Assembly (NCBI GenBank): GCA_040757115.1
Contig: JBFLYA010000003.1
Location: forward strand, 1 to 58,260
Reading direction: 5' to 3'
DNA from: a bacterium
GTDB lineage: Bacteria; UBA9089; CG2-30-40-21; SBAY01
DNA length: 58,260 nt
In this document: piece after piece, positions 2,410-36,958 of the stretch
How the letters are laid out: every line of letters starts with the position of its first letter
Numbering within the stretch: position 1 is the first letter of the stretch
Notes under the pieces: generated by a model
Database searches by the model: none
Told to the model about the DNA's origin: nothing
The model's input: only the letters and a program-made list of their open reading frames with translations
Made by a program: the position numbers and the translations under genes

Positions 2410-2646
2410 TTACCCACATGGACTGAGATAGGAAGTATTCAATATTAAACCATTGGAAGCACATATTTGTAAAAATTCTTCAATCTCCCTTTGTTCACCC
2501 CATAAATTAACCTGTCCATTAGAACTTACACTTACAGTGAGAATTCTTTTACCATACCTGCGCAAACAATGATTATGATTAAAGTTTTCACCCGATAATA
2601 TGTTTTTATCTCCTCTTTTTTGCTGAAAAGATTTCTGTTTTTCCAT
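2410..2646 (-). CDS. 78-aa protein, last gene of the ubiquitin-like operon, C-terminal Cys-Gly
   Basis: No family recognised. The ATG at 2646 is chosen because GGAGAG lies 7 bases upstream; longer starts leave no room for it. It begins 50 bases after the VWA stop on the same strand, so it probably belongs to the operon. The first half is polar and basic. The second half (RILTVSVSSNGQVNLWGEQREIEEFLQIC) looks like strand-turn-strand-helix. The protein ends SYLSPCG, so a C-terminal glycine is exposed without processing; modifiers and CBASS synthases conjugated by E1/E2 enzymes often end in Gly. That link is only a hypothesis. Confidence 0.55.
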   Translation of the reverse strand: MEKQKSFQQKRGDKNILSGENFNHNHCLRRYGKRILTVSVSSNGQVNLWGEQREIEEFLQICASNGLILNTSYLSPCG

Positions 2647-2696
2647 TGTCATTCTCTCCAAAGTTAATCATCTTTCAAAAATAGGTATTTCCGAAT

Positions 2697-4535
2697 TTAC
2701 TTTGTTTGAATATCTTCATCATCCTCAAGTAAAAGCAACTCATGGTCTTCTTTGGAATAATTATCTTCTTCAGATGGTTGTTGAGATAGATTCAATTTAT
2801 CTGGAGAAGAAGGTGGCTGTTCCCATTGTGGAGGAACCCCACCTATCCCTGGTGGATATTGACCTGGTTGTTGCGGATAATTTACTCCCCCTATTGGTTG
2901 CTGAGGGGGCGGAGGCGGATAATATCCACCTGCTCCTGATGGAGGTGGATATTGACCTGGTTGTTGTGACCAACCTCTTCCTCGAGTTGGCTGTTGAGGT
3001 GATGAAGGATGGGAGCGGATTCCTTTAATACGAAGTCCAGAACCACTATCCTGTGGTGGAGCTATAGGTGGTTGTTGTGGTGATGGAGGTGGATAAGGGG
3101 GCCATGGATGAGGGCCACCGTATTGTGGTGGATACTGACCCGGTGGAGGAGGTGGATAGTAAACTGGTTGTTGAGGTGGTTGAGGTCCATAATAAGTTCC
3201 TGAAGGCGGAGGAGGTGGACTACCCCATTGAGGAGGGCCACTATATGGCGGTGGATATTGGTCTGGTGGAGGTGGATAATTCCTTACCTGTGGTGAGGTT
3301 GATATATAAGTAGGTTGACCATAGGATGGTCGTTCTCCGATTCCATCAGAAGAAGAAACTCCATGTCTTATAGGTCTCCGAACAGGAGGTGCTATGGGAG
3401 GTATTAATCGTTCTCTCAGTAAAGTATAGATATGGGGAAGAAAGTAAAAGAATATAATGATGCCTAACATAATTGTAAAAGTTATCAGTCTCTCAGGTAT
3501 AATTTCCTGATGAAGAATTTGCTTGCGTTTTTCAGGATCTTCTGGTAGTATTAAACCAGGAATATTAGAAAAATTAATCTTATAAGGGGCTGACTGTACA
3601 TTGTTACTAAGTTGGACCTTATATTCTACAGCATCAACCAATTTTTTCAATTCAAGATTAGTTTTAAAAACAAGTTGATACTCCTTAATAACCCCTAATT
3701 GTATATCTTGATAAATTTGAATAAGTCTATCGCTTGAAGGAGCATAGTAGTAATCACCATGAGACAAAAAAGCAAAATCTTTCAAGATATTCTCATCTAT
3801 ACCAGAATCATTTCTATATCGGGGATTTCCAAATCCTATAGTATAAATAGGAATATTTACCTCTTTAATCTTTTCACAAACTGGATTCACATCTGTCAAA
3901 CCTGTTTCCCCTTCTCTAACTCTAACATCATTCTTTCCATCAGTCAATAAAATAACTATCTGTCTCCCTCCTTGTGGTGATATAGATTCTAATGCTCTGA
4001 TTGTAGCAGAGTATAGGGCTGTGTTATAAGTTGTTGCTTGAAGAAATTCTATTTGGTTTTTCAGTTTTTCCTTATCAGAATAGAATACTATCCTAGAAAC
4101 TTCAGGTACATAACTATTAAAAGCCATTATTGCTACTTTATCGTAGTCCCGCATATTTTCAATAAAATGATAAGCTGATTCTTTAGCAGCATCTATTTTT
4201 CTCTTCCCTTGACCACTATCATTAGCCATACTTCCACTTGTATCTATTGCCAATACTGCAATCAATGGAGTATTACTTTCTCCGATAATAGTTATCTCCT
4301 CGGGAGTTCCTATGTTCTTACCATTTTCAAAAAGAGTAAAATCTTCTTTGACTAATTTTTCACTATAAGGCTTTTTCTCCTCATTAAGAACGGAGACATA
4401 AGCTTTCCCATGAGGACAGTTATCCATTTTCATTTGTCGCAAATGAACTGATGAGATTTCCTCAGCTAAACATCGATTAATCATCATAAAAAGCATCACC
4501 ATTAATATTAAACTAGTTTTCCTTCTCAAAAACAT
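2697..4535 (-). CDS. VWA-domain protein, secreted/membrane-anchored, Pro-Tyr-Gly-rich tail
   Basis: 612 aa. An N-terminal signal peptide (basic start, hydrophobic core, cleavage near CLAEE) precedes a von Willebrand A domain at about residues 85-275 with an intact MIDAS: D98-T-S-G-S102 and, later, LLTDGKND. A transmembrane helix follows at about 349-371 (ITFTIMLGIIIFFYFLP), then a long low-complexity tail (about 385-580) rich in Pro, Tyr, Gln and Gly, and an acidic end. The VWA domain should therefore face the periplasm and the tail the cytoplasm, if the signal is processed as read. The tail carries LRIKGIR at 501-507, a motif shared with other operon proteins. VWA proteins often partner with AAA+ ATPases, and one is encoded two genes upstream. 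The start has AGGAGGTG; the gene begins 6 bases after the FHA stop. Confidence 0.85.
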   Translation of the reverse strand: MFLRRKTSLILMVMLFMMINRCLAEEISSVHLRQMKMDNCPHGKAYVSVLNEEKKPYSEKLVKEDFTLFENGKNIGTPEEITIIGESNTPLIAVLAIDTSGSMANDSGQGKRKIDAAKESAYHFIENMRDYDKVAIMAFNSYVPEVSRIVFYSDKEKLKNQIEFLQATTYNTALYSATIRALESISPQGGRQIVILLTDGKNDVRVREGETGLTDVNPVCEKIKEVNIPIYTIGFGNPRYRNDSGIDENILKDFAFLSHGDYYYAPSSDRLIQIYQDIQLGVIKEYQLVFKTNLELKKLVDAVEYKVQLSNNVQSAPYKINFSNIPGLILPEDPEKRKQILHQEIIPERLITFTIMLGIIIFFYFLPHIYTLLRERLIPPIAPPVRRPIRHGVSSSDGIGERPSYGQPTYISTSPQVRNYPPPPDQYPPPYSGPPQWGSPPPPPSGTYYGPQPPQQPVYYPPPPPGQYPPQYGGPHPWPPYPPPSPQQPPIAPPQDSGSGLRIKGIRSHPSSPQQPTRGRGWSQQPGQYPPPSGAGGYYPPPPPQQPIGGVNYPQQPGQYPPGIGGVPPQWEQPPSSPDKLNLSQQPSEEDNYSKEDHELLLLEDDEDIQTK

Positions 4536-4541
4536 CTTTCT

Positions 4542-5489
4542 TCACCTCCTAATTTGTTCTCTTGGAGGAAGATTTGAAGAATCACCTGACGAACTTCTTA
4601 CTTTCAGAAATCTAAAGCAGCTACTGCCCAAACAAATAAGGTCTCCATGTTGAAGCTGTTGCTTTCTATCAATTTTATGACCATTTACATAAGTTTCCTC
4701 TCCTTGATTTGGTAGCTCATAAGGTGAGATAAAAAACTGTCTTCCTTCCCAAGAGATTGTTGCATGAAGGGAATCAATAAGTTCATCTCCGACTATTTGA
4801 ATGTTAGCCTTTGAGGAAAATCTACCTGGGTCTCCACTACCAATAATATTTCGAGCGTCACGGTAGAGAGACTTTTTATATTGCTCGCCATACTTTGATG
4901 ATTTATTCCCTTCTACCCCTTGCAAATAAGCATCTGACCCCAAGATACAAGCAAAACTTACTCCTGAAGCAATAGATGCTCCCAGAATAGTAATTCCCCA
5001 TGCCATAGAGACAGTTGGACCAAATATGGTACCCAGAAAGTGATGTATAAAACCTCCTATCAATCCTCCAATAGCTCCACCCAGAAGTCCATTAAGTGCC
5101 CGCCGCATTGACCTCCATCTTATCGCCTCTGCTATACTTACTAAAACACCTAAGGTGGACCATCCAAACATTCTTCCAAAATATGGAATTGTATCTTTGG
5201 TTGCTTCATACAGATAGAAAAATACTACTCCACCTAAACTACCACCAATGATTCCAGTTAACGCTCCCAATAGGAAATCACCAAGACAGGTAGTAATACC
5301 TGAATCCATAATTCTTTCAAGGGCACAAACAAAAGAACCAATGAATATTCCTACCAGACAACCCACAGCAACAGCGGTAATTAGTGGAGAAAATGAAAGG
5401 TCAACTATCCAACACGAGGTAAACCAGCCCAAGAGTCCTGCCAGACAACCTGTAACTCCAAAATAGTATATACTTCTAAAAAAAGTCAT
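4542..5489 (-). CDS. Polytopic membrane protein with C-terminal FHA domain
   Basis: 315 aa. Residues 1-195 contain about five or six hydrophobic Gly-rich helices (for example LLGALTGIIGGSLGGVVFFY). Residues about 225-297 form a forkhead-associated domain: SLHATISWEG (the SxxHA core), ETYVNGHKI (the NG turn), LQHGDLICLGSSCFRF. The usual GR before the core is present only as PGRF, so phosphothreonine binding may be altered. FHA domains read phosphopeptides, so this could recruit a phosphorylated partner to the membrane. No Ser/Thr kinase gene is in the window. It starts 3 bases after the AAA+ stop. Confidence 0.85.
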   Translation of the reverse strand: MTFFRSIYYFGVTGCLAGLLGWFTSCWIVDLSFSPLITAVAVGCLVGIFIGSFVCALERIMDSGITTCLGDFLLGALTGIIGGSLGGVVFFYLYEATKDTIPYFGRMFGWSTLGVLVSIAEAIRWRSMRRALNGLLGGAIGGLIGGFIHHFLGTIFGPTVSMAWGITILGASIASGVSFACILGSDAYLQGVEGNKSSKYGEQYKKSLYRDARNIIGSGDPGRFSSKANIQIVGDELIDSLHATISWEGRQFFISPYELPNQGEETYVNGHKIDRKQQLQHGDLICLGSSCFRFLKVRSSSGDSSNLPPREQIRR

Positions 5490-5492
5490 CTT

Positions 5493-7499
5493 TTATACAC
5501 CTCTTATTTGTGCTTCTAATTCCCTTATTTTTTGTCTTAAGGGAGCATTAGTCTTTGTTCTTTTGACTTCTTCTATAATTTCACTCAACCATTGAGGCAT
5601 TGTAAGAGGAAGCATACTGTAAAAATTAGTTGCCTCAAGAGCCAAAAGCGATTGATAATCATAGATAAGGGGGTCATGATTTGGTTTAAAATCAGCAATA
5701 GCATTTTTCAAATGGTCTATATTTACCTTTTTGGTCTTTGCATATTCAGCCGCGCGTCTTACAATGACCTCAATAGCGGAACCAGTCAAACCTTCTGTCT
5801 CAACGGTTACAAAATCAAAGTCAATACCATCATCATATTCTATTTTTACCTTCTTTTCCATCACTTCAAAGATACTCTTTCTATCCTCCTTATCTGGGGG
5901 TAAAAGGGGTATAACCTTATCAAATCGACGAAGCATAGCCTGGTCCAGAACATCTGGTCGATTAGTTGCGGCTACCCAAATTATCTTACCTCGATTAGAA
6001 TTATCCGACATAAATGTTAATATCTTAGCAAAAATACGCTGGCTTACTCCACTATCTCGACTATCTGTCATCCGAGAACCAAAAGCTTGATCAACTTCAT
6101 CTACAAATACTACTACTGGTGACAGTGCTAGTAAAATATCAAATACCTTAGAAAGATTCCGTTCACTTTCTCCTACCCACATACTGCGTATGTCCTTCAT
6201 TTTCACTAAGTTCATCGTTGCCTCTTTAGCCAGTGCTTCTGCCAGAATAGTTTTACCAGTCCCTGGAGGACCAACTAACAAAATTCCCTTAGGAAGTAAT
6301 TCTACTATGTCTAAAAGGATATTATCGTCTTTTATCTCTTTTTTTTGCTCAAAATATCGTTTTATATCAGCCACTTTCTCCTCAAGAAATTTCTTCACAT
6401 GGTCCAAACCACCTATCGAGTCAAAGCCATGTTTTGGCTCCATCACTTCTAACAAGTTATTACTTTCTGCTTCAATAATTTCCTTCTTCTTCTCTTTCAC
6501 TAAATCATAACTTACATTAATTCCCAGAGCTTTAGCAGAGTTAAAAAGATAATCTAAATCTTTAAGGTTAAACCCTGCGGTTATTTCAGCCAGTCCTTCC
6601 AATGTAGTCCCTTCTTCTAATTTTATTTTAGGCTTAATTTCTTCTAATGCCTTCACAACCTCTTCTAAAGTGGGAATATCTTCACCTGGCACCTTTTCCT
6701 TCTCTGATGTTGAAACTTCTTCTGAAGAGGGAGAACTTTTTTCTTCTGGCATATTTTTCTTTTCAGAGGAAAGAAATCTTAGAAATGCCAATCGTGTTTT
6801 TGCATCTGGTCGATCTATTTTAATAGCCTTACAGCCATAATGAGAATAGATGTCTGGATGGACTGCACCAAGATTTGGAGTTACTAATAGAACTATGTTA
6901 CCAGTATCCTGTCTAATCTTATAGTTCGAAGCCCACCGCTGTAATGTCTCAATCAAGATAATAGCATCTTTATCTTGAGTCCCTGCAGGCAGCAATTTAT
7001 CTACATATTCGATAACGATGGCAGTGCGATGTTCCTTTTGTAACAGAAGATGTTCAAAATTAGGAAAGACTTTCTTAGGGTCTCTGAATGTTTCATCCTG
7101 GGATTGCCTAGCTTGCCTCCCAAATCCTTCAACAACTTTGCGTGACTCTGTTGAAAGGTTTTTTAGTCTTTCTTCATCAGATTTTTCTGGTTCTTCTTCC
7201 TCACCAGCACCAAAAATAGGTAGAGCAAATCGTTTAAGTATGTCTTTTTTTGGCACTAAACCCTCTGGATAGGTAATTCCAGCTGACTGGCAATAGAATA
7301 AGATAATATCATACTTTAATGCCAGTCGCATGGTTAAAAATTCACGCAAGGATAATTTACCTTTTCCTGGCACATAGATAAAATCATTCACATTAAAGTA
7401 GAGAAGAAACATATGAGAGGCATTAGCATTATAGACATTATTAAGTTCTTCCAGCCAGGCAGGAGATTCCCAATTCTCTATAATATTAGTTTCTGACAT
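5493..7499 (-). CDS. AAA+ ATPase (CDC48/FtsH-like) with degenerate N-terminal module
   Basis: 668 aa. The C-terminal half is a classical AAA domain: GPPGTGKT Walker A at about 410-417, VVVFVDEVDQAFG Walker B at about 465-477, an N/R-rich sensor segment (AATNRPDVLDQAMLRRFD) with arginine finger near 520, and a lid after that. The first ~250 residues resemble an ATPase-like module without Walker motifs, followed by an acidic Ser/Glu linker. There is no HExxH protease motif, so it is an unfoldase/remodeller rather than FtsH. In the operon it plays the position expected of a CDC48-like segregase acting on modified proteins. The start follows the previous stop by 3 bases, inside a shared AAAGGAG site. 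Confidence 0.9.
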   Translation of the reverse strand: MSETNIIENWESPAWLEELNNVYNANASHMFLLYFNVNDFIYVPGKGKLSLREFLTMRLALKYDIILFYCQSAGITYPEGLVPKKDILKRFALPIFGAGEEEEPEKSDEERLKNLSTESRKVVEGFGRQARQSQDETFRDPKKVFPNFEHLLLQKEHRTAIVIEYVDKLLPAGTQDKDAIILIETLQRWASNYKIRQDTGNIVLLVTPNLGAVHPDIYSHYGCKAIKIDRPDAKTRLAFLRFLSSEKKNMPEEKSSPSSEEVSTSEKEKVPGEDIPTLEEVVKALEEIKPKIKLEEGTTLEGLAEITAGFNLKDLDYLFNSAKALGINVSYDLVKEKKKEIIEAESNNLLEVMEPKHGFDSIGGLDHVKKFLEEKVADIKRYFEQKKEIKDDNILLDIVELLPKGILLVGPPGTGKTILAEALAKEATMNLVKMKDIRSMWVGESERNLSKVFDILLALSPVVVFVDEVDQAFGSRMTDSRDSGVSQRIFAKILTFMSDNSNRGKIIWVAATNRPDVLDQAMLRRFDKVIPLLPPDKEDRKSIFEVMEKKVKIEYDDGIDFDFVTVETEGLTGSAIEVIVRRAAEYAKTKKVNIDHLKNAIADFKPNHDPLIYDYQSLLALEATNFYSMLPLTMPQWLSEIIEEVKRTKTNAPLRQKIRELEAQIRGV

Positions 7500-7502
7500 T
7501 AA

Positions 7503-9239
7503 TTAACTCCTTTCTTTTTCTTGAGGACTAATTTGTTTAACCATAGAGGTAGGAATAGTTTCTTCTAAAAGTTCTACAAAATGTGGGGAGATACAAACTT
7601 CACCTTGGGTATCTACCTCTACAATCCCTTTACCCTCAATCGAAAAAGTTTTGATAACCTTATTTTTACCAATAGTTTCTATTTCTATCTTATCATAGCC
7701 CATTTGGTGGAGTGATAGTAATATTCTATCTACTACTATATCTTGCAAAGTTCGCTCATCTTGAATAAGTTGTGGAATTGTTCCTGTTCCTTCTTTTACG
7801 CCAGTTACCTTATAATTTAAGTATATGCCTCGATTTTTTAACTCATCAAAAAAATGCTGTAACTCGGGTAGACAGGTAGCCTGACCTGCCTCATCGGATT
7901 TAAACCCATCGAGGTCATACAAAATTTCTCCCTCCGCGGAAACATTGACCCTAAAAATTTTCTCTCCTTTTATAGCTTTGTAATATATTCGCTCTTTTAT
8001 TTCAGACTTTTCAATTTCTGTATATTTCATTATTTGAAATACCTCTTCTATCTTTTGACTAATATGTGCCTGAAGATTTTGATTGAGGGTATTAATTGCC
8101 TTTTCTTTAATCTGATTAAATTTCTCCTGAGCATATTTTGCCTGGGACAGAGCATCATCTAATCTACCAGTGCGAAACATCTCTTGAGCTTCAGCTAAAG
8201 TCTGTTTTGCTTCCTCAAAGTTGTCTTTCAAAGTAAGTCTAACAATCTCTCTAACAGATTGAAGTGACTCTTCTTCACTCTTTTCTAACATTTCTATAAT
8301 AATCTCAGCATCTTCTACAGCTTTATCAAAATCTATTTGAATCTGGTTTGTTCTTTTTTCCCAGGTTTCTTTTTCTATCCTCAACCTATTACTTAAGTTA
8401 GACAAATGTTTAGTTATATCTTCCATGTGCTGCCAAACTATCGTGTAATTCTGGTCTTTCCAATTAGTGGTTATATCTCTAATCTCATCTTCTATTCTGC
8501 TAATCTCCTGTTGATTATTAGAAGGAAAAGAACCTGCAATTGTCTCTGTTTCTAATAAATCCAACTCCGCTTTCATTATCATTTCATGAATTTTCTCTGT
8601 CTGCTGATAGTGCTGTTCCTGAAGAACATAAGCTTTCTTCATTGTCTCTTGAAGCACACTTAAGGCTTCTTCTGCAAGACTATAAGAAGATGGAAATTCT
8701 CCTCTCTCTAAATTCTCTTTTCCTCGCTGTTCAATATTAACTATCCTATCTATTGCCTCTTTTTCTACAAATGGCAATCTCTGAACTTTTTCTAACATAA
8801 AATCCACTTCTTGCCAATTCATTGAAATTATTTGTTTAGCTGTTCTTTCCTCAGCCTCCTGGCCTAAAAATTTCAATTCTTCCCTAAATTGCTTTTCTTG
8901 CTGGAGATATTTCTGTCTTCTTTGTTCAATCTCCTGTTGCTCTTTAATAGCCTGTTTATGAGTCTGAAATCGTAATTTTTTATCTTTTCCTCGCTCTTTT
9001 TTGATAACTTCTGCTTTTTTCTGATGTTCTTTAATTAATTTAGTAACTCTCTGTTTTTCTTTCTCAAGCATCTTTTTTACTTTTTCTCTTCGTTTCTGAG
9101 CTATCTCTTGAGCGGTGTTATTAACTACTTCATATAACTTACAACCACAAAAAACCAATCCTTTGGCACCATAATAAACTCCGCTTACTGCTGCCCCTAA
9201 ACAAATTCCTATTACATCTGCTCCCCCTGCACTACTCAT
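7503..9239 (-). CDS. Long coiled-coil protein with N-terminal hydrophobic segment
   Basis: 578 aa, family not recognised. Residues 1-45 are small and hydrophobic (ADVIGICLGAAVSGVYYGAKGL) and could anchor it to the membrane. Residues about 45-400 are heptad-rich Glu/Lys/Gln coiled coil. The last ~170 residues form a compact domain with alternating strands (KGEKIFRVNVSAEGEILYDLDGF; later KTFSIEGKGIVEVDTQGEV) that looks like a duplicated beta-rich unit. It resembles architectures seen beside Ycf46-like ATPases, but I cannot name it. It directly precedes the AAA+ gene and probably works with it as adaptor or scaffold. Confidence 0.75.
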   Translation of the reverse strand: MSSAGGADVIGICLGAAVSGVYYGAKGLVFCGCKLYEVVNNTAQEIAQKRREKVKKMLEKEKQRVTKLIKEHQKKAEVIKKERGKDKKLRFQTHKQAIKEQQEIEQRRQKYLQQEKQFREELKFLGQEAEERTAKQIISMNWQEVDFMLEKVQRLPFVEKEAIDRIVNIEQRGKENLERGEFPSSYSLAEEALSVLQETMKKAYVLQEQHYQQTEKIHEMIMKAELDLLETETIAGSFPSNNQQEISRIEDEIRDITTNWKDQNYTIVWQHMEDITKHLSNLSNRLRIEKETWEKRTNQIQIDFDKAVEDAEIIIEMLEKSEEESLQSVREIVRLTLKDNFEEAKQTLAEAQEMFRTGRLDDALSQAKYAQEKFNQIKEKAINTLNQNLQAHISQKIEEVFQIMKYTEIEKSEIKERIYYKAIKGEKIFRVNVSAEGEILYDLDGFKSDEAGQATCLPELQHFFDELKNRGIYLNYKVTGVKEGTGTIPQLIQDERTLQDIVVDRILLSLHQMGYDKIEIETIGKNKVIKTFSIEGKGIVEVDTQGEVCISPHFVELLEETIPTSMVKQISPQEKERS

Positions 9240-9536
9240 TGGTATTCTCCTTTAAACTACATCTTGATTATTCAACAAATTTCGACCTGTGCGGTTAGGT
9301 TCAAATAAAATGCAAGAAGCAGATATTCAATGCTACAAACAGGTCGCTCCTACGGAGCTACAAACATATTGCTTTTGCGGAATGCTACAAACAGATTGCT
9401 CCTACGGAGCTTTATTTATATTAGCTCCAGAGGAGCGGTCTGTTTGTAGAAAGATTATATCCTTACAACATAATTAGCTCCAGAGGAGCGACCTGTGTAT
9501 TCTTTTTCTCACCCTAACCGCACAGGTGGACAAATT
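9240..9536. mobile_element. MITE-like element inside the operon
   Basis: The gap between the two coiled-coil genes holds a ~243-bp element bounded by perfect 15-bp inverted repeats: acctgtgcggttagg (9285-9299) and cctaaccgcacaggt (9513-9527). Inside are two direct and two inverted copies of a gctcctacggagct / agctccagaggagc hairpin unit. Related pieces occur at 22566-22580, 49640-49660 and 50050-50115. It has no coding capacity and does not break a gene, but it may affect read-through. Confidence 0.7.
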
Positions 9537-10127
9537 TTATAAAGCTCCTTTTGTTGCCTCTTGAGAAATCCTCATCCTGTTCTTCAAATTTTTAACTTCA
9601 TCATTTAAGTCTTTGATTTGCTTTTTCAAGTTTTCATTTTCTGTCTTCAGTTTGTTACACTCATCTACAAGTTCATTATTGACCTTCTGTAAACTCTCCT
9701 TATCTGCATTCACTTTCTTAAGTATTTCTTCTATTTCTTTTACCTTATCTGCTTTCTGGTGATTTTGTTCTTCACTTTGTTGAAGTTTTTGAGATAAGAT
9801 TTCATTCTCCTTTGCTTTTTGAGAGATTAAACCTTCCTTTTCTTTTAATCTCCGCTGAACTTCATTAAGTTCAAATTGAAGGCTATTTATTTCTTGCCTA
9901 TGTTGTGTCTGTAGTATAGTAATCTGACTATTTAAAGAACGATTTTGAGTAGTTAGATTTTTTATTTCAGCCTTATAGCGTTCTATTTCAGTATGTAATT
10001 GTCGAATCTCTTTTTCCTGTCCTCCTAATAAGAGCGATGGGGTCCTACTCATATTAGAAACAGGAGTTGGTTTTCTTTTTCTTCGTACCCGTATATCTTT
10101 TATTTTCACACTCGAACTATTTTGCAT
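9537..10127 (-). CDS. Coiled-coil protein with basic N-terminal motif
   Basis: 196 aa. Residues 1-25 are basic and carry VKIKDIR at 7-13, similar to the LRIKGIR motif in the VWA, JAMM and E2 proteins. Residues about 35-185 are almost uninterrupted coiled coil (Glu/Lys/Asn/Gln heptads) with no transmembrane segment or enzyme motif. It is probably a cytoplasmic scaffold or spacer. The start has GGAG 8 bases upstream. A MITE-like element separates it from the next operon gene. Confidence 0.75.
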   Translation of the reverse strand: MQNSSSVKIKDIRVRRKRKPTPVSNMSRTPSLLLGGQEKEIRQLHTEIERYKAEIKNLTTQNRSLNSQITILQTQHRQEINSLQFELNEVQRRLKEKEGLISQKAKENEILSQKLQQSEEQNHQKADKVKEIEEILKKVNADKESLQKVNNELVDECNKLKTENENLKKQIKDLNDEVKNLKNRMRISQEATKGAL

Positions 10128-10170
10128 GTGATTATCTCCATTAAATAGAACGGCATCGTTCCACCCACAT

Positions 10171-10305
10171 TTATCCTCCTATGAAATTATCCAATTTGGT
10201 GATTGTAACCTTAGCTACCTCACTCCACTTACCCTTTCTCTCATTATAGTCAATAGCTCTAATTCTATACTCAAGGATTTTCGTCAATCTGTTACCTCTG
10301 CCCAT
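10171..10305 (-). pseudogene. Duplicated end of an FN3 domain (44-codon remnant)
   Basis: An open frame gives KILEYRIRAIDYNERKGKW... SEVAKVTI, closely matching the end of the second FN3 domain of the JAMM gene just upstream (MYKIRTIGCNDEKGEW... SKVVKVTI). It is therefore a partial duplication in the 188-bp gap between the JAMM and coiled-coil genes. It has an ATG and ends Ile-Gly-Gly, but its FN3 homology argues against a modifier role. Confidence 0.6.
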
Positions 10306-10315
10306 TCTGCCCTAC

Positions 10316-12208
10316 TCATTTGTTTTCTTCTTTCAAACCTTCATTTCTCCTTACCCCCTCTTCACCACTATCGACATTCTGTAACGACTGGTCTTCCTTA
10401 TTTACATCTGATGGATTAGACATTTCTTCTTTTTTTACACTTGGTTGAAGTGGTTGTTGAGGTGAACCCTCATCCTTTTTTACGGTTGGACCTTTTTTTT
10501 TATCTTCCTTTTCTCTCTTTCTTGTGTTTGTATTCCAATTATTTTGCTGGCCCTTCTTTCTTTCTTCTTGGATTGTAACCTTAACCACCTTACTCCACTC
10601 CCCCTTTTCATCATTACAGCCAATAGTTCTAATTTTATACATAAGGTTTTTCTTTTGTTTTGGTGACCACTCATCGCTATATTCTTTTGAATTCCACGAA
10701 TATATATCTTTTAGTTTTTTAAAATCCTCCTCTCCCACTTTTACCTGAATTTCATAATATTTAACGGAACTATCTAAATTATCATTCCATTTCAAAATCA
10801 CAATTTTGCCATCTTTTTCCAGCTCAGCGTTGAATCCCGTAGGTGCTTCTAGTTTAGGTGGTATTGGTTCCTGTGGTATTGGTGACGAAAACTCTTTCGT
10901 ATAAGATTTATCATTTTGTAACTTGAGTGTTAAAGTATATTTGTAGTCTTTTCCCGGTAAGACATCTGTATCTTTATACTGCCCATTAATTATCTCTTGA
11001 TGACTAAGGGTTAGTGATTTATCATGCTCATTAGATGATGTTCTCTTTAAAATTCCGTCTTTGATTTCTTTTTCATCTACTCCTTTCAACTCCCATTTTA
11101 CAACTAATCCATCTTTAGATAGTTCGGGGCGCAATATATCAAATATATCATTAGAGACTGGATTACTTAGATTATCCTTTTTTTCTTGAGGGAATTCAAC
11201 AGGCCGTTCACTAGGGATTTCAACAGGTTGGAACATAAGGAAGATAAGGTAGATAAAGATGACAGCCATTACAATCATTCCACACCAAAGGATTATTTCC
11301 ATCACATCCTGGAAAGTAATTTCCTCCAGAGATTCAATAAGCTCACCCCAAATTTTTTTAATTGGATTAGGTTTTTTAGGACGGTATTGAGGTTCAGTTT
11401 TCTCATTAGATTGCCGATTTTGTCCTTTTGTAGGAATATTATTAACTCTGCGAGTTGAATAGTTATCCATGCAAGGGGAATAGTCATCCAGATAAAATTC
11501 AGCTCTACATTCTGAGTCTAACCTATCATTTTCCCAGATAAAGTATCCTGCTGTCTTCTTTTTAGGTTGAATAACCAAAGCTACATGCCAGGGCTGCATA
11601 AAATTGGTTTTCGCTAACTCTCGGTCAGGAGGAGAGAGTGAGATATCGTGACTTGGATGACTATGATACCAACCCACTTGTTTAAGATGTGAATACTTCT
11701 CTTGTTGTAGGTTTTTTACCCTATTTTTTTCTTGAGGGGTAAAGACAAAGTGGTCGTATCTGGCATTGTCATACTTCATAGGAATGGCTTCCTCAATATG
11801 AACCATATATGTTTCTCTTCCCATTTTCTTTACTGGAGGAGGCACATACCCTAACAAAATTCCTCCTGTTTCATTAGGAATTTTTTCTTGAGATTGAAAA
11901 AAGATTTTTTTGTAGACCCTCTTCACACAAAAAATTTCTACTGGAGAATTGGATACCTGCCAGGGAATCGTCTCGCCACTTATCTCTGTCTCCTTACTAT
12001 TTCGTATCCCTTTTATTCGTAGATTAGTAACATTTTGGTTCTCTTTCTCTTTACCCAATTCTTTTTCTTTCTCAGGGGGAGGTGACATAGCTGATTGAGA
12101 AGATACTTGACTCTGTCTGGGAATAGAAGGTTGTATAGATCCTATTTTATGTTCCCACTGTTCTAATCTTCTTTGTAACCAATTTTCTTCCTTTTCCTTC
12201 AAGTCCAT
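10316..12208 (-). CDS. JAMM/MPN metallopeptidase (deubiquitinase-like) with TM helix and FN3 domains
   Basis: 630 aa. Residues 1-80 are polar linker with LRIKGIR at 63-69. Residues about 90-245 are a JAB/MPN domain with the complete zinc signature: E113 (NETGG), H182-S-H184-P, S192 and D195 (HxHx7SxxD). Such enzymes cleave isopeptide or C-terminal bonds of ubiquitin-like proteins. A transmembrane helix lies at about 297-320 (VMEIILWCGMIVMAVIFIYLIF). Two fibronectin-III-like domains follow (about 345-445 and 450-550), then a charged low-complexity tail. With the peptidase in the cytoplasm, the FN3 domains would be periplasmic. The start has GAGGTG and lies 10 bases after the E2 stop. Confidence 0.9.
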   Translation of the reverse strand: MDLKEKEENWLQRRLEQWEHKIGSIQPSIPRQSQVSSQSAMSPPPEKEKELGKEKENQNVTNLRIKGIRNSKETEISGETIPWQVSNSPVEIFCVKRVYKKIFFQSQEKIPNETGGILLGYVPPPVKKMGRETYMVHIEEAIPMKYDNARYDHFVFTPQEKNRVKNLQQEKYSHLKQVGWYHSHPSHDISLSPPDRELAKTNFMQPWHVALVIQPKKKTAGYFIWENDRLDSECRAEFYLDDYSPCMDNYSTRRVNNIPTKGQNRQSNEKTEPQYRPKKPNPIKKIWGELIESLEEITFQDVMEIILWCGMIVMAVIFIYLIFLMFQPVEIPSERPVEFPQEKKDNLSNPVSNDIFDILRPELSKDGLVVKWELKGVDEKEIKDGILKRTSSNEHDKSLTLSHQEIINGQYKDTDVLPGKDYKYTLTLKLQNDKSYTKEFSSPIPQEPIPPKLEAPTGFNAELEKDGKIVILKWNDNLDSSVKYYEIQVKVGEEDFKKLKDIYSWNSKEYSDEWSPKQKKNLMYKIRTIGCNDEKGEWSKVVKVTIQEERKKGQQNNWNTNTRKREKEDKKKGPTVKKDEGSPQQPLQPSVKKEEMSNPSDVNKEDQSLQNVDSGEEGVRRNEGLKEENK

Positions 12209-12218
12209 ACTTCACCTC

Positions 12219-13079
12219 TTATATTTCAAGACTTTGCTTTTTAGTAGATTTCTCTGATGAATCCTTGTGCAATACTATTTTGACCCTTTTCTCTCCTAGT
12301 TTTAAAGGAAGTGTCAGCCCTACTCTACTTAAAGGAAAGAAGTCAGGATGTTTCTCTTTATAAGCCAAATACCATTCTTTGGCTTTAAGATTCATCCTCG
12401 GGTGGTCATCATCGAGGTTTACAGACCAATATTGTATCAATTTACAACACTGGACACAGGCATAAATCAAGTTACTGTCCAGTGGATACCATTCGAAGAA
12501 TAAGCATACATCCCTTTTCTTATCCATATTGGCATTAGGATGAAAAATATCGGTTACCGCGATTACAACTGGTCGAAGAATAGGATAATCTCGTGACAAT
12601 GTTAATCTAAGAATATGTTCATCTTCCTTTATTATTGGTTCTTTCTTATCGTCTAATCCACTAATTCCCTTTATCTTCATCAAAATAATTTCAATCTCTC
12701 CTGGAGATAGCCCCTTCACTCTTAGATGTTCAGGATTAGCCGTTGCTAACCGTAATAATCCAGCCCGGTCTTCTTGAACCCGGTTCGTGTTCTCATAGGC
12801 AGCTACTTCTGATGGGTCATATACTGAAATAACACTTCCTGGTGGGACACCCATGTTTGACAAACTATTATCAAGAAAGAGCTCCTCTTGATTCCAGAAA
12901 ACAGAGTACTGAACCTCTTGTCCCTTTTCATCATAGAGACGGATAGGATATTCTGTTCCTTGAGAGGTTCTGATAAGGTCTCTCAAGACATCTATCAAAG
13001 ATGTCTCATCATCCACTTCTACACTATACTCCTGCTGACCTTTTGGTGTAGTTACTACAAAAATAAAATTATTAATCAT
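12219..13079 (-). CDS. Ubiquitin-like domain fused to E2-like (UBC-fold) conjugating domain
   Basis: 286 aa. Residues 1-90 read as a beta-grasp Ubl: FIFVVTTPKGQQEYSVEV, helix SLIDVLRDLIRTSQ, then SLSNMGVPPGSVISVYD. A linker carries LRVKGL at 119-124. Residues about 130-250 follow the E2 plan: LRLTLSRDYPILRPVV strands, the H180-P-N turn (IFHPNAN), and catalytic-type Cys192 (KKRDVCLFFEWYP) 12 residues later, then the C-terminal helices. In the family this Cys carries the Ubl as a thioester. The Ubl does not end in Gly-Gly, so it is more likely a docking or regulatory domain than the conjugated tag. AGGAGGTG precedes the start. Confidence 0.85.
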   Translation of the reverse strand: MINNFIFVVTTPKGQQEYSVEVDDETSLIDVLRDLIRTSQGTEYPIRLYDEKGQEVQYSVFWNQEELFLDNSLSNMGVPPGSVISVYDPSEVAAYENTNRVQEDRAGLLRLATANPEHLRVKGLSPGEIEIILMKIKGISGLDDKKEPIIKEDEHILRLTLSRDYPILRPVVIAVTDIFHPNANMDKKRDVCLFFEWYPLDSNLIYACVQCCKLIQYWSVNLDDDHPRMNLKAKEWYLAYKEKHPDFFPLSRVGLTLPLKLGEKRVKIVLHKDSSEKSTKKQSLEI

Positions 13080-13110
13080 TAGTGATACACCTCCTTCAGA
13101 AGATTAGACT

Positions 13111-14226
13111 TTAACTTGACTTTTGAACGGAATAAGCAGGAAAATCCTCTTCAATCTTCCCCATTTCTCTCATTAAGAAGATTATCAAGATACCATTTGT
13201 TGGCTCCAAATCCAGAAGAGTTTCCGTTTTCTTTATGCTGAGTTTTCTTTCTGCTATTCTCTTTATCAAAGCGGGATTAATTGGTAATACGCAGTAGTTA
13301 TTGCCCACCTCTTTTATTTCAGGGATAAAAACTGGTAATAAATCTACTATTGATACATCTGCTGGCAGCCGTCCTGAATATAGTTTCAACTGAGCAAACA
13401 GAAATGAAACAGCAAATACTGTAACGATAGGTCGAAGAACTAATTCTTCACAAGGAAAGATATTCTGTTCGTAGAGTCGCTTTTCGTTGTCTATCCAAAT
13501 TCTTTTCTCTGGATGAACTAACCGATAATCTGTTATTCGAGATGCCTCTCCCTTATTCCATACTTCATTTGTTAATCTTAGGAAGTCAGGATGGTTAAAT
13601 ATTTGACTTACGGGCTGAAGACAATCTACATCAATCTCCACTCCTCCTTTTTCTCCAAATGTAGTTATCTTCATTTTAATAGACATAGGGTATGCAGTAA
13701 TACTCTCCCCTTCTTCTAAAACAAATGGAGTAGGGTCTTGTGCTTGAAGTAATTGTTTTCTACCCTTAACTAAAATGAAATTATTCCACTTAACATCTTG
13801 TTGTAGATATTGATACAGAGAATAGATAGGATACCTTCCATCCGTAGGGAAATATAATGAAAATTTTTCCCCCTGCCTATCTTTGCTAGTCCAATTAAGG
13901 ATCTCAACTACATCAGGGCTTTTAATCAATAGAAGATTTTCATGATGTCCCCTTAATTGTTCAAGAGAGAGTTTTAGATTTTTAACAATACCCCAGGAAT
14001 TACGGTTGGGAGAAAAAACAGCTACATTAGTTTGCGCTTCTCTCCACTTAATTTCAGCTAAAAGTTGTGTTTTTATGTCTTTCAAAGAGGTATTTGATGG
14101 AAACCCTCTTCTTTGTCTAAAAAGTGATGGTTGACCTTGCAACAACTCAATCCACTGGCACAGTTTATCTTCTTGTATTATCTTCCAATTACCTTCATAG
14201 GTGTATATATTAGGGAATAAATTCAT
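13111..14226 (-). CDS. Probable tandem beta-grasp (Ubl-like) protein of the conjugation operon
   Basis: 371 aa, no named family recognised. Two segments look like Ubl folds: about 125-185 (GEKFSLYFPTDGRYPIYSLY... ending VLEEGESITAYP) and about 186-270 (KMKITTFGEKGGVEIDV... YRLVHPEKRIWIDNEKRLYE... CEELVLRP). The second closely follows the ubiquitin pattern 'value-of-tag, defined, gap, early, output strand'. The first 120 residues are helical. The C-terminus (YSVQKSS) has no glycine tail, so any conjugation would need trimming. It lies between the RING and E2 genes with AGGAGG at its start. It may be the modifier precursor or an adaptor. Confidence 0.55.
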   Translation of the reverse strand: MNLFPNIYTYEGNWKIIQEDKLCQWIELLQGQPSLFRQRRGFPSNTSLKDIKTQLLAEIKWREAQTNVAVFSPNRNSWGIVKNLKLSLEQLRGHHENLLLIKSPDVVEILNWTSKDRQGEKFSLYFPTDGRYPIYSLYQYLQQDVKWNNFILVKGRKQLLQAQDPTPFVLEEGESITAYPMSIKMKITTFGEKGGVEIDVDCLQPVSQIFNHPDFLRLTNEVWNKGEASRITDYRLVHPEKRIWIDNEKRLYEQNIFPCEELVLRPIVTVFAVSFLFAQLKLYSGRLPADVSIVDLLPVFIPEIKEVGNNYCVLPINPALIKRIAERKLSIKKTETLLDLEPTNGILIIFLMREMGKIEEDFPAYSVQKSS

Positions 14227-14250
14227 TTCTTATACCTCCTCTTCTTTCCT

Positions 14251-14922
14251 TTAACTCTTCGTCTTTTTATAACTTCTGAGATTAATTTTGCACTCAGGAT
14301 TGAGGCATCTCCAGCGATTAGGTACTCCCCAACAATCTATACATAAGATAGTATCACAGTTAGGGCACTTTCTTAAGTCCAAGCTCTGTCCATCGCTTCC
14401 ACTATTTCTTCGACAGAGTGGACATATATAGTTAGGTATCAATAGAGTATTACCAAGTGCCTCTGGTATAGGTTCAAATTGAGTAGATGGAATAGCTGTT
14501 CTGACTACTTTATCTTTTTTACCATACGCTGGGAAAAATATAATCGTGAGCACCCCTATTATTACTCCTACCGCACTTGCTATTAAAATCAGAGAATGCT
14601 CATCAATGAATTTGTTTAATTCTACTTGAGAGATTTGTAGAATCAAATAAAAGAACAATAGAAAATTTCCTATTCCACAACCTATACCTTGCACTAGAAC
14701 AGTTAGAAGTCTCCACCTTTGAACCGACCTCAGTAGAAGAGCAATAACACATCCTACTACAAATTGGAGAATACCAAATACTATCCATGGAACCTTCACC
14801 CAAAAGAGTATCCCTCCTAATATTGCACCAAATAAGCTTATCACTCCTGAAACACCAAAATTTCTAATCTTATCCATATTCTGTTTTAATCTTCTCATGA
14901 ACAGATTTTTTCTCCTTTTCAT
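14251..14922 (-). CDS. Membrane protein with C-terminal RING-like zinc domain (candidate E3)
   Basis: 223 aa. Four hydrophobic helices (about 22-135) are followed by a cytoplasmic-looking linker and eight cysteines arranged in four pairs: C167/C170, C186/C189, C194/C197, C206/C211 (CPLC, CPNC, CIDC, CLNPEC). The alternation and spacing fit a RING-type or related binuclear treble-clef. RING proteins bring a charged E2 to its target, so this could be a membrane-bound E3. All ligands are Cys, so a rubredoxin-like or double zinc-ribbon fold remains possible. It overlaps the E1 stop by 4 bases (ATGA), meaning tight translational coupling. Confidence 0.75.
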   Translation of the reverse strand: MKRRKNLFMRRLKQNMDKIRNFGVSGVISLFGAILGGILFWVKVPWIVFGILQFVVGCVIALLLRSVQRWRLLTVLVQGIGCGIGNFLLFFYLILQISQVELNKFIDEHSLILIASAVGVIIGVLTIIFFPAYGKKDKVVRTAIPSTQFEPIPEALGNTLLIPNYICPLCRRNSGSDGQSLDLRKCPNCDTILCIDCWGVPNRWRCLNPECKINLRSYKKTKS

Positions 14923-16187
14923 TCAAAATTCATAACCTCCATTTCATCACCAGTCAATTCATAGAATTTACTTATACTTTTCTTTCCATCATCTATTACT
15001 GCCTCTAAGATATCCAGTTGACGCAGTCCTCCTTGTGTTAAGGTCAAATTAAGGAAATCAACATTTTCATCTAACTCACTCACAGACTTAGCTATTTCTT
15101 GAGGTGTCCCACAATGAGAGCAACTTTGATGCTCTATAAATACATACGGGGATTGATAAACCTTCTCAGTCTTTTTGCAATTAGGACAGGAGGCAGAGAT
15201 TACCAAATCATACCAAAGACTAATTCTTGCCTTCTTACCCAAATCCTTTTTAACTTTTTCAAGTAACTCGCCAATAGTGGTAGAATTAGAGTTAAACTCT
15301 TTAACCTCAATTATATCTTTTTCTGGGATAGGGGAACGAATTTGATGAATAAGACACTTTGGGTTACGGCGACGAGTAAATACTTCCATTTTATGGTCTT
15401 GTGTATCTATGTGAATAATCTTATTCAATAATGGTGTTATTTCTTCATTATTCATTAAAATTTTAAGTCCTTCTTGTACCTGAAGAGCACCAATAAGAGA
15501 AGCCATCATAGGTGTAGAAGGGACAAATCCTCTTTTTTCAGATTCTCTCTCAATTTCAGCGCAGATAACCCCTCTGCCTGTTCCTTTTTCCAGAATCTCC
15601 TTTACCATCTCTGATGATAGAGAACAAGCATAACAAGCTCCTGCAGGAACATCAAAAACTGTTACTGCTCCCCGTAAGACATTAACATCATTTAACCCGG
15701 CATCAATCCATGGTTTTTTAACCCGGATACAGGCATCGTTTAAAATAATACGGGGCAGGCGGCTGTCAAAATCACAAAAAATAAGGTCCATTCTACGCAA
15801 TACTCCTAAACCAAGTGAAGCAATATTCCCATGAAAAGTAGCTACTTTAACATCAGGATTAACTTCCTTTATTTGCTCAGCTACTACCTCTACTTTAGAA
15901 CGGCCAATATCTCTTTGGCGAAACATTATAGACCTGGTTAAATTAGAGAGCTCTATAATTTCCTTATCAACAAGTAAAATCTTACCACAGCCAATAAGAG
16001 CTAAGTTTTTAGCCACTTCATTGCCAATGGCTCCTACTCCACCTATCAGAGCCGTACTATTCTTAACCACACCTTGTTTCCACCCGTGGATAGTTTCTAA
16101 TCTAGAATATCTTTCTTTATCCTCATCCTCTTTATCTTTTTTACTGATAGAAATTTGCTTTTTGAGTGTTTTGGGTATTATATCCAT
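14919..16187 (-). CDS. E1-like ThiF/MoeB-family activating enzyme
   Basis: 422 aa. A Rossmann adenylation domain starts at GGVGAIG (G49) with the family's LVDKEIIELSNLTR segment after it. C185-Y-A-C188 is the likely catalytic or zinc Cys region. Further on are two CxxC-type pairs (CPNC and CSHC) in a C-terminal domain that resembles the E1 ubiquitin-fold domain. It should adenylate the C-terminus of a Ubl and pass it to the E2. A GTG at 16217 would lie inside the promoter, so I chose the ATG at 16187, which has GAGG upstream. It is the first gene of the operon. Confidence 0.9.
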   Translation of the reverse strand: MDIIPKTLKKQISISKKDKEDEDKERYSRLETIHGWKQGVVKNSTALIGGVGAIGNEVAKNLALIGCGKILLVDKEIIELSNLTRSIMFRQRDIGRSKVEVVAEQIKEVNPDVKVATFHGNIASLGLGVLRRMDLIFCDFDSRLPRIILNDACIRVKKPWIDAGLNDVNVLRGAVTVFDVPAGACYACSLSSEMVKEILEKGTGRGVICAEIERESEKRGFVPSTPMMASLIGALQVQEGLKILMNNEEITPLLNKIIHIDTQDHKMEVFTRRRNPKCLIHQIRSPIPEKDIIEVKEFNSNSTTIGELLEKVKKDLGKKARISLWYDLVISASCPNCKKTEKVYQSPYVFIEHQSCSHCGTPQEIAKSVSELDENVDFLNLTLTQGGLRQLDILEAVIDDGKKSISKFYELTGDEMEVMNFE

Positions 16188-16207
16188 TTGTGCCTCATTA
16201 TGAAAAT

Positions 16208-16236
16208 ATTTTACCACAAATTTTGTCCTTTGTCAA
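16208..16236 (-). promoter_or_regulatory. Sigma-70 promoter of the ubiquitin-like operon
   Basis: On the minus strand: TTGACA (16231-16236), exactly 17 bases, TAAAAT (16208-16213). Transcription should begin near 16201, leaving a leader of about 14 bases before the E1 start. A second copy of the same promoter lies at 20678-20706 on the plus strand. Confidence 0.85.
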
Positions 16237-16259
16237 CAAAAAATTCGGCTTTTTAAATC

Positions 16260-16708: not shown

Positions 16709-16870
16709 TTAATCTCCACATCTCCTTTTCGGACACTATTTCAACCTTTATGCTAGATTAAGACACCACCAAATATTTCAATACTCATAAGATTCAAGCA
16801 GTAGAGAGAGGCAGGTCTAAAATAAAAACCTGCCTCTCCCAACAATAAAGGGGTGAGAAAAAGGACATAT
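16709..16870 (+). repeat. 3' flank of the duplicated surface gene with hairpin repeat, copy 2
   Basis: Matches 36629-36796 along its length, including cggacactatttcaaccttt and the hairpin arms at 16806-16816 and 16828-16838. It lies just past the stop of the truncated surface gene, so it belongs to the duplicated segment. The hairpin may stabilise or end the transcript, though no T-run follows. Confidence 0.75.
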
Positions 16871-16872
16871 TT

Positions 16873-19800: not shown

Positions 19801-20252
19801 GCCCGATACCTCTGCTAAGTTCTTTTGGTCACCAGATTCAGCATCAATCCCAACTAACACCTTGTAAGTTAGTATCTTTTCTTCATTAATTGGGAAATCG
19901 CCAATCTCCCAGGTAAAAGGATTTTTACCTATCGGGTCTTTAAAGCAGTCAGAATTTAACCTACTTGTCCCTTTGATATACTTAAAATTATATGGGAATT
20001 TATCTACTATTTTAACCTGATTTATCTTCCCATAGCCAATATTCTTAACCTTGATGGTATAAGTTATTATATCACCAATCTGAGCGGTTTTATCACTTGC
20101 CGTTTTAATAACCAATAAAGAGGTATTGTGGTCAAGATAGATATCCTTTGTAAGTGTCTGTCCTGAAATCAAATGGAAGGTAGTAGAGGTCTTTGGATAA
20201 TAATAGTCTGCCCTAACTGTAAGATAGTAATATCCTGCGGCTAAATTACTAA
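16873..20252 (-). pseudogene. 5'-truncated duplicate of the DUF11/beta-barrel surface protein
   Basis: An open frame of about 1,100 codons nearly identical to the C-terminal three quarters of the intact gene at 36959-41254. Homology stops abruptly at about 20252 inside the first carboxypeptidase-regulatory-like domain. It therefore lacks the signal peptide, FlgD-like domain and any proper start; the first in-frame start is a TTG without a ribosome site. Encoded domains: DUF11 repeat, SdrD-like repeat and the long beta-barrel ending LRLTGRFWE. Without a signal peptide it cannot be exported. It may serve as a donor for gene conversion with the full copy. Confidence 0.85.
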
Positions 20253-20640: not shown

Positions 20641-20775
20641 TCTCTTTGGATTTTTTTCAAAAGAGCCGAATTTTTTGTTGACAAAGGATAAAATTTGTGG
20701 TAAAATATCTTCACAATGGGCACAAATGGATATAATACCCAAAACACTCAAAAAGCAATTTCCTATCAGTAAATG
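20641..20775 (+). repeat. Inverted duplicate of the E1 promoter and first codons
   Basis: About 110 bases match 16142-16262 in inverted orientation: gccgaattttttgttgac, the whole promoter, and the start of the E1 frame (MDIIPKTLKKQ, here ending after 16 codons). It separates the surface-gene duplicate from the radical SAM gene. Confidence 0.85.
20678..20706 (+). promoter_or_regulatory. Duplicated sigma-70 promoter, now upstream of the radical SAM gene
   Basis: TTGACA (20678-20683), 17 bases, TAAAAT (20701-20706), identical in boxes and spacing to the E1 operon promoter. It points at the gene starting at 20806, with a leader of about 93 bases containing two short E1-derived frames. Confidence 0.75.
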
Positions 20776-36951: not shown

Positions 36952-36958
36952 CATATTT

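Follow-up and report, generated by a model that had tools for sequence, protein, structure and literature searches.

A bacterial E1-E2-JAMM operon with transmembrane RING, FHA and VWA proteins as a candidate membrane-integrated ubiquitin-like conjugation system

Contig JBFLYA010000003.1 of assembly GCA_040757115.1 (GTDB lineage UBA9089; CG2-30-40-21; SBAY01), contig 3 of a 4.3-Mb genome that is 99.9% complete, was analyzed over positions 1 to 58,260 (the window) and carries an operon for a ubiquitin-like (Ubl) conjugation system in which several proteins are predicted to reside in the membrane. A sequence-only reading had described eleven minus-strand genes separated by a few bases, and all 11 of the 11 open reading frames (ORFs) in the cluster at 2410-16217 were present. 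The close spacing, however, fails at two gaps: one of 188 bp between the JAMM gene and the gene for a 196-residue protein, which holds a decayed copy (10201-10282, KILEYRIRAIDYNERKGKWSEVAKVTI; 83% identity to 10571-10652) of the FN3-like segment of the JAMM protein, and one of 297 bp between the genes for the 196- and 578-residue coiled-coil proteins, inside which lie repeats with GCTCCGTAGGAGC and TGTTTGTAG units (9289-9490). Pfam matches above cut-off were obtained for ThiF, JAB, FHA, VWA and AAA, and a weak one for UQ_con in the E2. The features are as follows:

16208..16236, minus strand: promoter-like site upstream of E1 (TTGACA, 17 nt, TAAAAT, with TG before the -10; 11/12 match)
14919..16217, minus strand: E1-like activating enzyme with a ThiF fold and CxxC pairs in an additional C-terminal region (Pfam, invariant columns)
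14251..14922, minus strand: RING-like E3, four predicted transmembrane (TM) helices and then a zinc finger (Cys spacing, hydropathy)
13111..14226, minus strand: 371-residue protein (U371) between RING and Ubl-E2, fold without assignment, putative embedded Ubl-like segments
12219..13079, minus strand: Ubl-E2 fusion, N-terminal YukD-like Ubl (residues ~1-87) plus UBC domain (alignment, profile, AlphaFold)
10316..12208, minus strand: JAMM/JAB metallopeptidase, then one predicted TM helix and an FN3-like region recognized by eye (Pfam)
9537..10127, minus strand: 196-residue coiled-coil protein (CC196), N-terminal VKIKDIR at 10089-10109
7503..9239, minus strand: 578-residue coiled-coil protein (CC578; ORF list, Pfam scan)
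5493..7499, minus strand: CDC48-like AAA+ ATPase, degenerate N-terminal half and active D2-like domain (406-530)
4542..5489, minus strand: multi-TM protein with C-terminal FHA domain (Pfam FHA 3e-9, predicted TM)
2697..4535, minus strand: VWA protein with signal peptide, VWA domain, TM helix at 351-369 and Pro-rich tail (Pfam VWA 1.5e-16)
2410..2661, minus strand: 78- to 83-residue protein (sm83) ending in -CG, without family (ORF list, Pfam)

The window thus encodes, in a single E1/E2/JAB operon, a RING preceded by TM helices, an FHA protein with TM helices and a VWA protein with signal peptide and TM anchor, the combination by which we define a membrane VWA-RING-FHA group; all three proteins had been named in the sequence-only reading. 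The zinc finger (C167-x2-C170...C186-x2-C189...C197W, at 14329-14424) matched Pfam Prok-RING_1 weakly in the window protein (E = 0.33) and well in a colinear counterpart (1.6e-6), and its Cys spacing (C2...C2...CW) resembles that of the Prok-RING_1 proteins of colinear operons. The VWA protein retains an intact metal ion-dependent adhesion site (MIDAS; DTSGSM). From a simple hydropathy scan, which gives the TM counts as predictions, we read this protein as secreted and then membrane anchored, so that the VWA domain would lie outside and the RING and FHA domains in the cytosol. The phosphothreonine-binding Arg of the FHA domain was Ser (IGS) in 9/9 aligned proteins, the window protein included, and the Ser-x-x-His segment was altered in homologues. 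A role as phosphothreonine reader was rejected as the default on these grounds, and the FHA domain is better read as a non-phospho scaffold.

Among the 80 loci of a scan based on the E1 alignment, the core order E1-RING(TM)-UblE2-JAB-FHA(TM)-VWA(TM) recurred colinearly in Chloroflexota, which answers the check on gene order in other genomes that had been proposed for this operon; examples include L047, L049, L056, L058, L059, L061, L073 and L076, which encode all or most of E1, RING, Ubl-E2, a free Ubl, one or two JABs, FHA and VWA. The RINGs of the Chloroflexota FHA/VWA loci had three to eight TM helices in 11/11 cases, in contrast to those of compact Chloroflexota systems, 15/16 of which had none. 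As in the window, the FHA proteins of these loci were multi-TM with a C-terminal FHA domain, and the VWA proteins comprised a signal peptide, VWA domain, TM helix and tail. No other examined locus matched the full gene set with its AAA and coiled-coil proteins, and the neighborhoods of four E2 matches (G117, G154, G309 and G015) contained no AAA/FHA/VWA operon like that of the window. In other phyla the same three domains were found joined: in Bacteroidota, L109 encodes a single chain of signal peptide, VWA, TM, RING, TM and FHA-like end (the last by eye) and L106 one of VWA, TM, RING-like part (by eye), TM and FHA, while in Acidobacteriota L101 a VWA-TM-RING chain is followed by an FHA-TM gene. 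These fusions, together with the colinearity, are the main argument for treating VWA, RING and FHA as one membrane unit, which we read as one transmembrane E3-like receptor. In the E1 tree, the E1s of the Chloroflexota FHA/VWA loci formed one clade (support 99/94) that joined those of the Bacteroidota FHA/VWA systems (98/91). The window E1 fell near that of L101; since both are long branches, its placement is not relied on.

The annotated flanks of the Chloroflexota operons were ordinary genes (tRNA synthetase, SHMT, two-component system). Such surroundings argue against anti-phage defense, in which a phage-triggered envelope sensor would tag phage or membrane proteins in the manner of Bil or Ubl tri-ligase conflict systems. 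Related Ubl systems are indeed antiviral or predicted conflict systems (PMC7159879), and the E1 and JAMM of the window matched the PADLOC E1-E2 and JAB models; however, its VWA, FHA, RING and Ubl-E2 matched no PADLOC model, and scans of the operon detected neither a caspase, EAD or CD-NTase nor any further effector domain. We regard defense as unlikely. Of the two functions suggested from the sequence alone, envelope protein quality control stays plausible and leads, whereas the antiviral device gained no positive support from the flanks or from those four proteins.

FHA/VWA systems outside Chloroflexota have neighbors that include an ion-channel protein (L106:17471-18364), an SrfB protein (L109:11382-12761) and a type II/IV secretion ATPase (L101:10924-12093). 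The last of these is compatible with a part in the assembly of a surface or secretion apparatus: VWA, a YscD-like FHA and a YukD-like Ubl would make up a scaffold in the envelope whose assembly is regulated by conjugation. Consistent with that idea, the Chloroflexota FHA protein tested had Yop-YscD_cpl as its best match (4.8e-13) and a Chloroflexota Ubl matched YukD of type VII secretion (4.3e-11). No secretion channel or ATPase was recognized in the Chloroflexota operons or in that of the window, however, and the secretion link was confined to one locus, which makes an assembly factor improbable, even a little more so than defense.

A second link among the parts is a short basic-hydrophobic motif, [RK][IVL][RK][ILV] (RVKL/RIKL), located within the C-terminal 60 residues of system proteins from the Chloroflexota FHA/VWA loci. 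It was present in 63 copies, against 3.5 in composition shuffles (0/300 shuffles as high), a count to be read with the reservation that the motif had been spotted by eye before testing and that related sequences are not independent; neighboring ORFs had 3 against 2.7 expected. The stronger point is the contrast between operon classes: the motif is carried by E1, E2, JAB and VWA of the FHA/VWA loci, and none was seen in compact Chloroflexota systems at the tails of E1, E2 or JAB. Because it lies on all four of these proteins, one common binding partner is likely. In the window, the exact 7-mer LRIKGIR is common to the JAMM protein (12002-12022) and the VWA tail (3015-3035), where it aligns with the Chloroflexota VWA motif (R502 being invariant); VKIKDIR occurs in CC196 and RVKI in the E2 tail. 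The window thus shares the motif of the membrane VWA-RING-FHA group, with weaker statistics than in Chloroflexota. In L109 (Bacteroidales), the E2 tail and the JAB linker have acidic alternating strands (DIDIEIEFD and NIDIDIDFD; 3375-4046, 5041-7644), possibly a charge-reversed counterpart of the basic motif.

The E1 matched Pfam ThiF at 4.8e-46, and its profile matched UBA1/UBA7 among PDB sequences. C185, previously taken as the E1 cysteine (C195 when counted from the GTG), belongs to an invariant CYxC pair, which together with C288/H291 resembles a zinc site; the invariant C219 (GTG numbering) is a better candidate for the catalytic residue. In the Chloroflexota FHA/VWA loci, the E1 tested (L049:444-2144) and similar ones begin with a winged helix of GntR type (PF00392; L049, 3.5e-20). 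The activating enzyme is thus fused to a domain for DNA binding, and the operon may be autoregulated. The E2 was weak by Pfam (UQ_con, 3e-3, 17.5 bits), yet its active-site residues, H180-P-N (12534-12542) and C192 (12504-12506), were invariant over 23 aligned sequences (the window protein and 22 homologues), and its profile retrieved eukaryotic E2s among PDB sequences. An AlphaFold model of the Ubl-E2 protein (mean pLDDT 78) had E2s as its best PDB structure matches, with CDC34 on top (2.6e-5), so that the predicted structure supports a UBC fold around the two motifs originally picked out. The JAMM peptidase (Prok-JAB, 8e-8) has the full set of zinc ligands ascribed to it (E113, H182xH184, S192, D195). 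The findings that had been named in advance as fatal to the sequence-only reading, namely no UBC or JAMM fold, or a gene order absent elsewhere, were not borne out.

Free Ubls ended exactly in -AG in 39/50 cases (10/794 control ORFs), several of the remainder having a short extension past AG, and Chloroflexota Ubl-E2 fusions kept TAD[VI]TAG at the junction in 11/11. These ends and junctions suggest a mature Ala-Gly end on the Ubl and JAMM processing of the fused or extended forms. The recognizable Ubl of the window operon is the N-terminal domain of the E2, and it has no -AG junction (...YDPSEVAAYE), so that conjugation in cis is doubtful. U371 had been put forward as a probable Ubl, which is unproven: it had no Pfam match and no homologue in 386 genomes, and its single-sequence AlphaFold model reached a pLDDT of 35. 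The small sm83 protein was rejected as modifier, being too short past its predicted helix, ending in -CG and belonging to no family. Of the minus-strand frames of at least 40 residues in the operon, only the decayed FN3 fragment ended in AG or GG. The earlier statement that all conjugation steps are represented consequently does not hold, since the operon does not encode a conjugable Ubl with an -AG or -GG end.

The only other Ubl retrieved by the Ubl-E2 profile in the genome was a free one ending in -AG, on contig 55. It belongs to a compact operon that is conserved within the taxonomic order, E1-RING(70 aa)-Ubl(89 aa, ...VVVAG)-E2-JAB, beside a pdxJ-like gene, whose E1 is ~36% identical to that of the window. 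Given that the Ubl of the window operon has lost its -AG end, that the operon offers no other and that only the contig-55 Ubl was retrieved elsewhere, supply of the modifier in trans is probable, unless the chemistry of the operon has changed. In E1 and E2 searches, none of the 18 relatives in the phylum yielded a further copy of the window-type system.

The AAA+ ATPase (Pfam AAA, 2.5e-35) was closest among PDB entries to the CDC48/VCP D2 domain (5e-68) and has an MWVGES (MWxGES) pore-loop segment, in keeping with the CDC48-like assignment already made; one active AAA domain was found by Pfam and the N-terminal half is degenerate by eye. The only PF00227 match of the genome reads as HslV and no 20S proteasome was found, and proteasome coupling in the source genome was accordingly rejected. 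Extraction rather than proteasomal degradation would be the natural inference.

Taken together, comparative evidence strongly supports the membrane-linked E1/RING/E2/JAMM system first proposed, and we favor, with a probability of roughly 0.55, a membrane-integrated Ubl conjugation machine that comprises a VWA-RING-FHA receptor, a hub, tagging and extraction. Its most likely function would be envelope-triggered tagging followed by membrane extraction. What sequences and models provide is the set of domains, their predicted topology, the order and fusions of the genes, the statistics of the motif and the tails of the Ubls; from these we infer hub assembly, the direction of signaling, the substrates and the extraction step. 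The metal site of the outward VWA domain would bind a partner in the envelope or at the surface; RING and FHA would lie in the cytosol, FHA serving as non-phospho scaffold, and E1 and Ubl-E2 would be recruited to this hub, in related operons probably by the basic-hydrophobic tail motif, which in the window is on the JAMM, VWA and coiled-coil proteins. The RING would then discharge Ubl (in the source genome perhaps the -AG Ubl of the compact contig-55 system, supplied in trans) from the E2 onto membrane or membrane-proximal proteins, and the membrane-anchored JAMM would process or remove it. Finally, the CDC48-like unfoldase and coiled coils, additions of the source genome, may extract or remodel tagged proteins in a manner like endoplasmic reticulum-associated degradation (ERAD), without a 20S proteasome. 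A more specific version is tentative: an outside-in receptor in which the extracytoplasmic VWA domain, once it binds a ligand, switches on the TM RING, the tail motif holds the parts together and the CDC48-like ATPase extracts tagged proteins from the membrane, as a prokaryotic counterpart of ERAD.

Several points weigh against the membrane-integrated machine. The TM layout and topology rest on prediction; the 7-mer shared within the window arose in 17/500 plain and 5/500 segment shuffles and is modest evidence alone; the window E1 branch is very long (3.61); the Ubl lacks its -AG junction; and AAA, CC578, CC196, U371 and sm83 lack counterparts in the FHA/VWA loci examined, which leaves the extraction step resting on one operon. 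Two of these points, the E1 branch and the missing -AG tail in cis, also suit a degenerate paralogue that no longer conjugates, its Ubl-E2 and E1 being remnants or scaffolds, as do the divergent E2 and the long gaps with their repeats and decayed FN3 copy. Decay of this kind is very unlikely, however, given that all frames are open, that E2 HPN/Cys, JAMM ligands, AAA P-loop and VWA MIDAS are intact, and that most conserved E1 residues, C219 included, are kept.

The core enzymes of the membrane-integrated machine are of a known kind. Prokaryotic "tri-ligase" systems of E1, E2, RING, JAB and YukD-like Ubl (Burroughs 2011, as cited in PMC7159879) have, as summarized there, the same enzyme set and Ubl family as the window, which likewise encodes a ThiF-fold E1 with a conserved Cys, an E2 with catalytic Cys and HPN, a JAB peptidase with full JAMM motif and, by Cys spacing, a RING finger. 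Compared with that summary, the window adds the TM RING, the VWA with signal peptide and TM helix, the TM FHA, the membrane JAMM and the CDC48-like AAA. Its operon has no conjugable -AG Ubl, and we therefore file it as related to tri-ligase systems rather than as a standard complete member; the contig-55 system, whose YukD-like Ubl does end in -AG, fits the summarized description. FtsH ternary systems (vWA/double-AAA/Ubl-E2/E1/RING/JAB; Kaur et al. 2020, PMC7159879) resemble the window in vWA, an AAA whose N-terminal half looks degenerate by eye, E1, RING, JAB, Ubl-E2 and helical proteins. The window differs in its VWA with intact MIDAS, signal peptide and TM helix, in its FHA-TM protein and in an AAA that is CDC48-like, not FtsH-like, by best match. 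Membership was rejected: no MoxR was found in the operon (bpMoxR matched the AAA with 14 bits, below its cut-off of 27), and Pfam scans of it gave no EAD1, caspase or beta-propeller match, leaving it without the EAD1 or caspase-like effector as well.

Among other systems, that of Caldiarchaeum subterraneum (E1/E2/srfp/Rpn11), which conjugates and deconjugates, has clustered E1, E2, RING and JAMM genes like the window; its processed ubiquitin ends in GG, and the excerpted account describes no VWA, FHA or TM parts (PMC5654768). Bil/Bub operons follow a similar logic of E1, E2, JAB/DUB and Ubl but have other Ubl types, and the excerpts of PMC11354881 and PMC13373217 mention no RING, FHA, VWA or AAA; Bil membership was rejected, as the gene set (BilA tandem Ubl, BilB E2, BilC DUB, BilD E1) differs and the Ubl-E2 had no PADLOC match. 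Eukaryotic ERAD, with its membrane RING, E2, Cdc48-like ATPase and isopeptidase, is a works-like analogy rather than a homologous system, and differs in that the source genome has no detected 20S proteasome. The FHA/VWA set, fusions, tail motif and -AG rule had no description in the literature searched, which did not cover the 2011 survey of prokaryotic RING systems; their novelty is for that reason provisional.

The core order and the fusions in other phyla suggest that bacteria can couple envelope events to Ubl tagging. If so, bacteria would own an E3-like ligase that spans the membrane and carries a sensor domain on the outside, and prokaryotic Ubl tagging would be a signaling route across the envelope, beyond cofactor or antiviral chemistry. 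The conserved operon, VWA-RING-FHA fusions, tail motif and -AG ends would likewise bear on the origin of membrane RING/Cdc48 pathways such as ERAD.

Two loci have a further association. In L080 (2338-14523) and L088 (1-11078), a Pup-proteasome cluster (Mpa-like AAA, Dop/PafA-like protein and Pup) adjoins E1, E2, Ubl and JAB by eye, and the Pup-adjacent Ubl genes of L088 include an FHA-RING-like protein, again by eye. Ubl systems that adjoin Pup clusters have been described, with Pup-coupled ones reported for Thermofonsia (Kaur 2020, PMC7159879).

The site upstream of E1, put forward as the single consensus promoter of the operon, was the best of 50 promoter-like sites in the region, against 44 expected by chance, so that nothing but the 11/12 match and the position speaks in its favor. 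Because of the overlap with the -10 element and a GAGG upstream, the E1 start is probably ATG 16187 rather than the ORF-opening GTG 16217. A 93% identical copy of the segment with this promoter and the first E1 codons (16140-16257) lies inverted at 20655-20773, directly upstream of a plus-strand gene (20806-22014), which may indicate common regulation or mark a past inversion. The window also contains a 3.4-kb duplication (16866-20252 and 36952-40338, 98.4% identity), by which a 1099-residue ORF repeats the C-terminal part of a 1444-residue surface-type protein (DUF11/SdrD_B).

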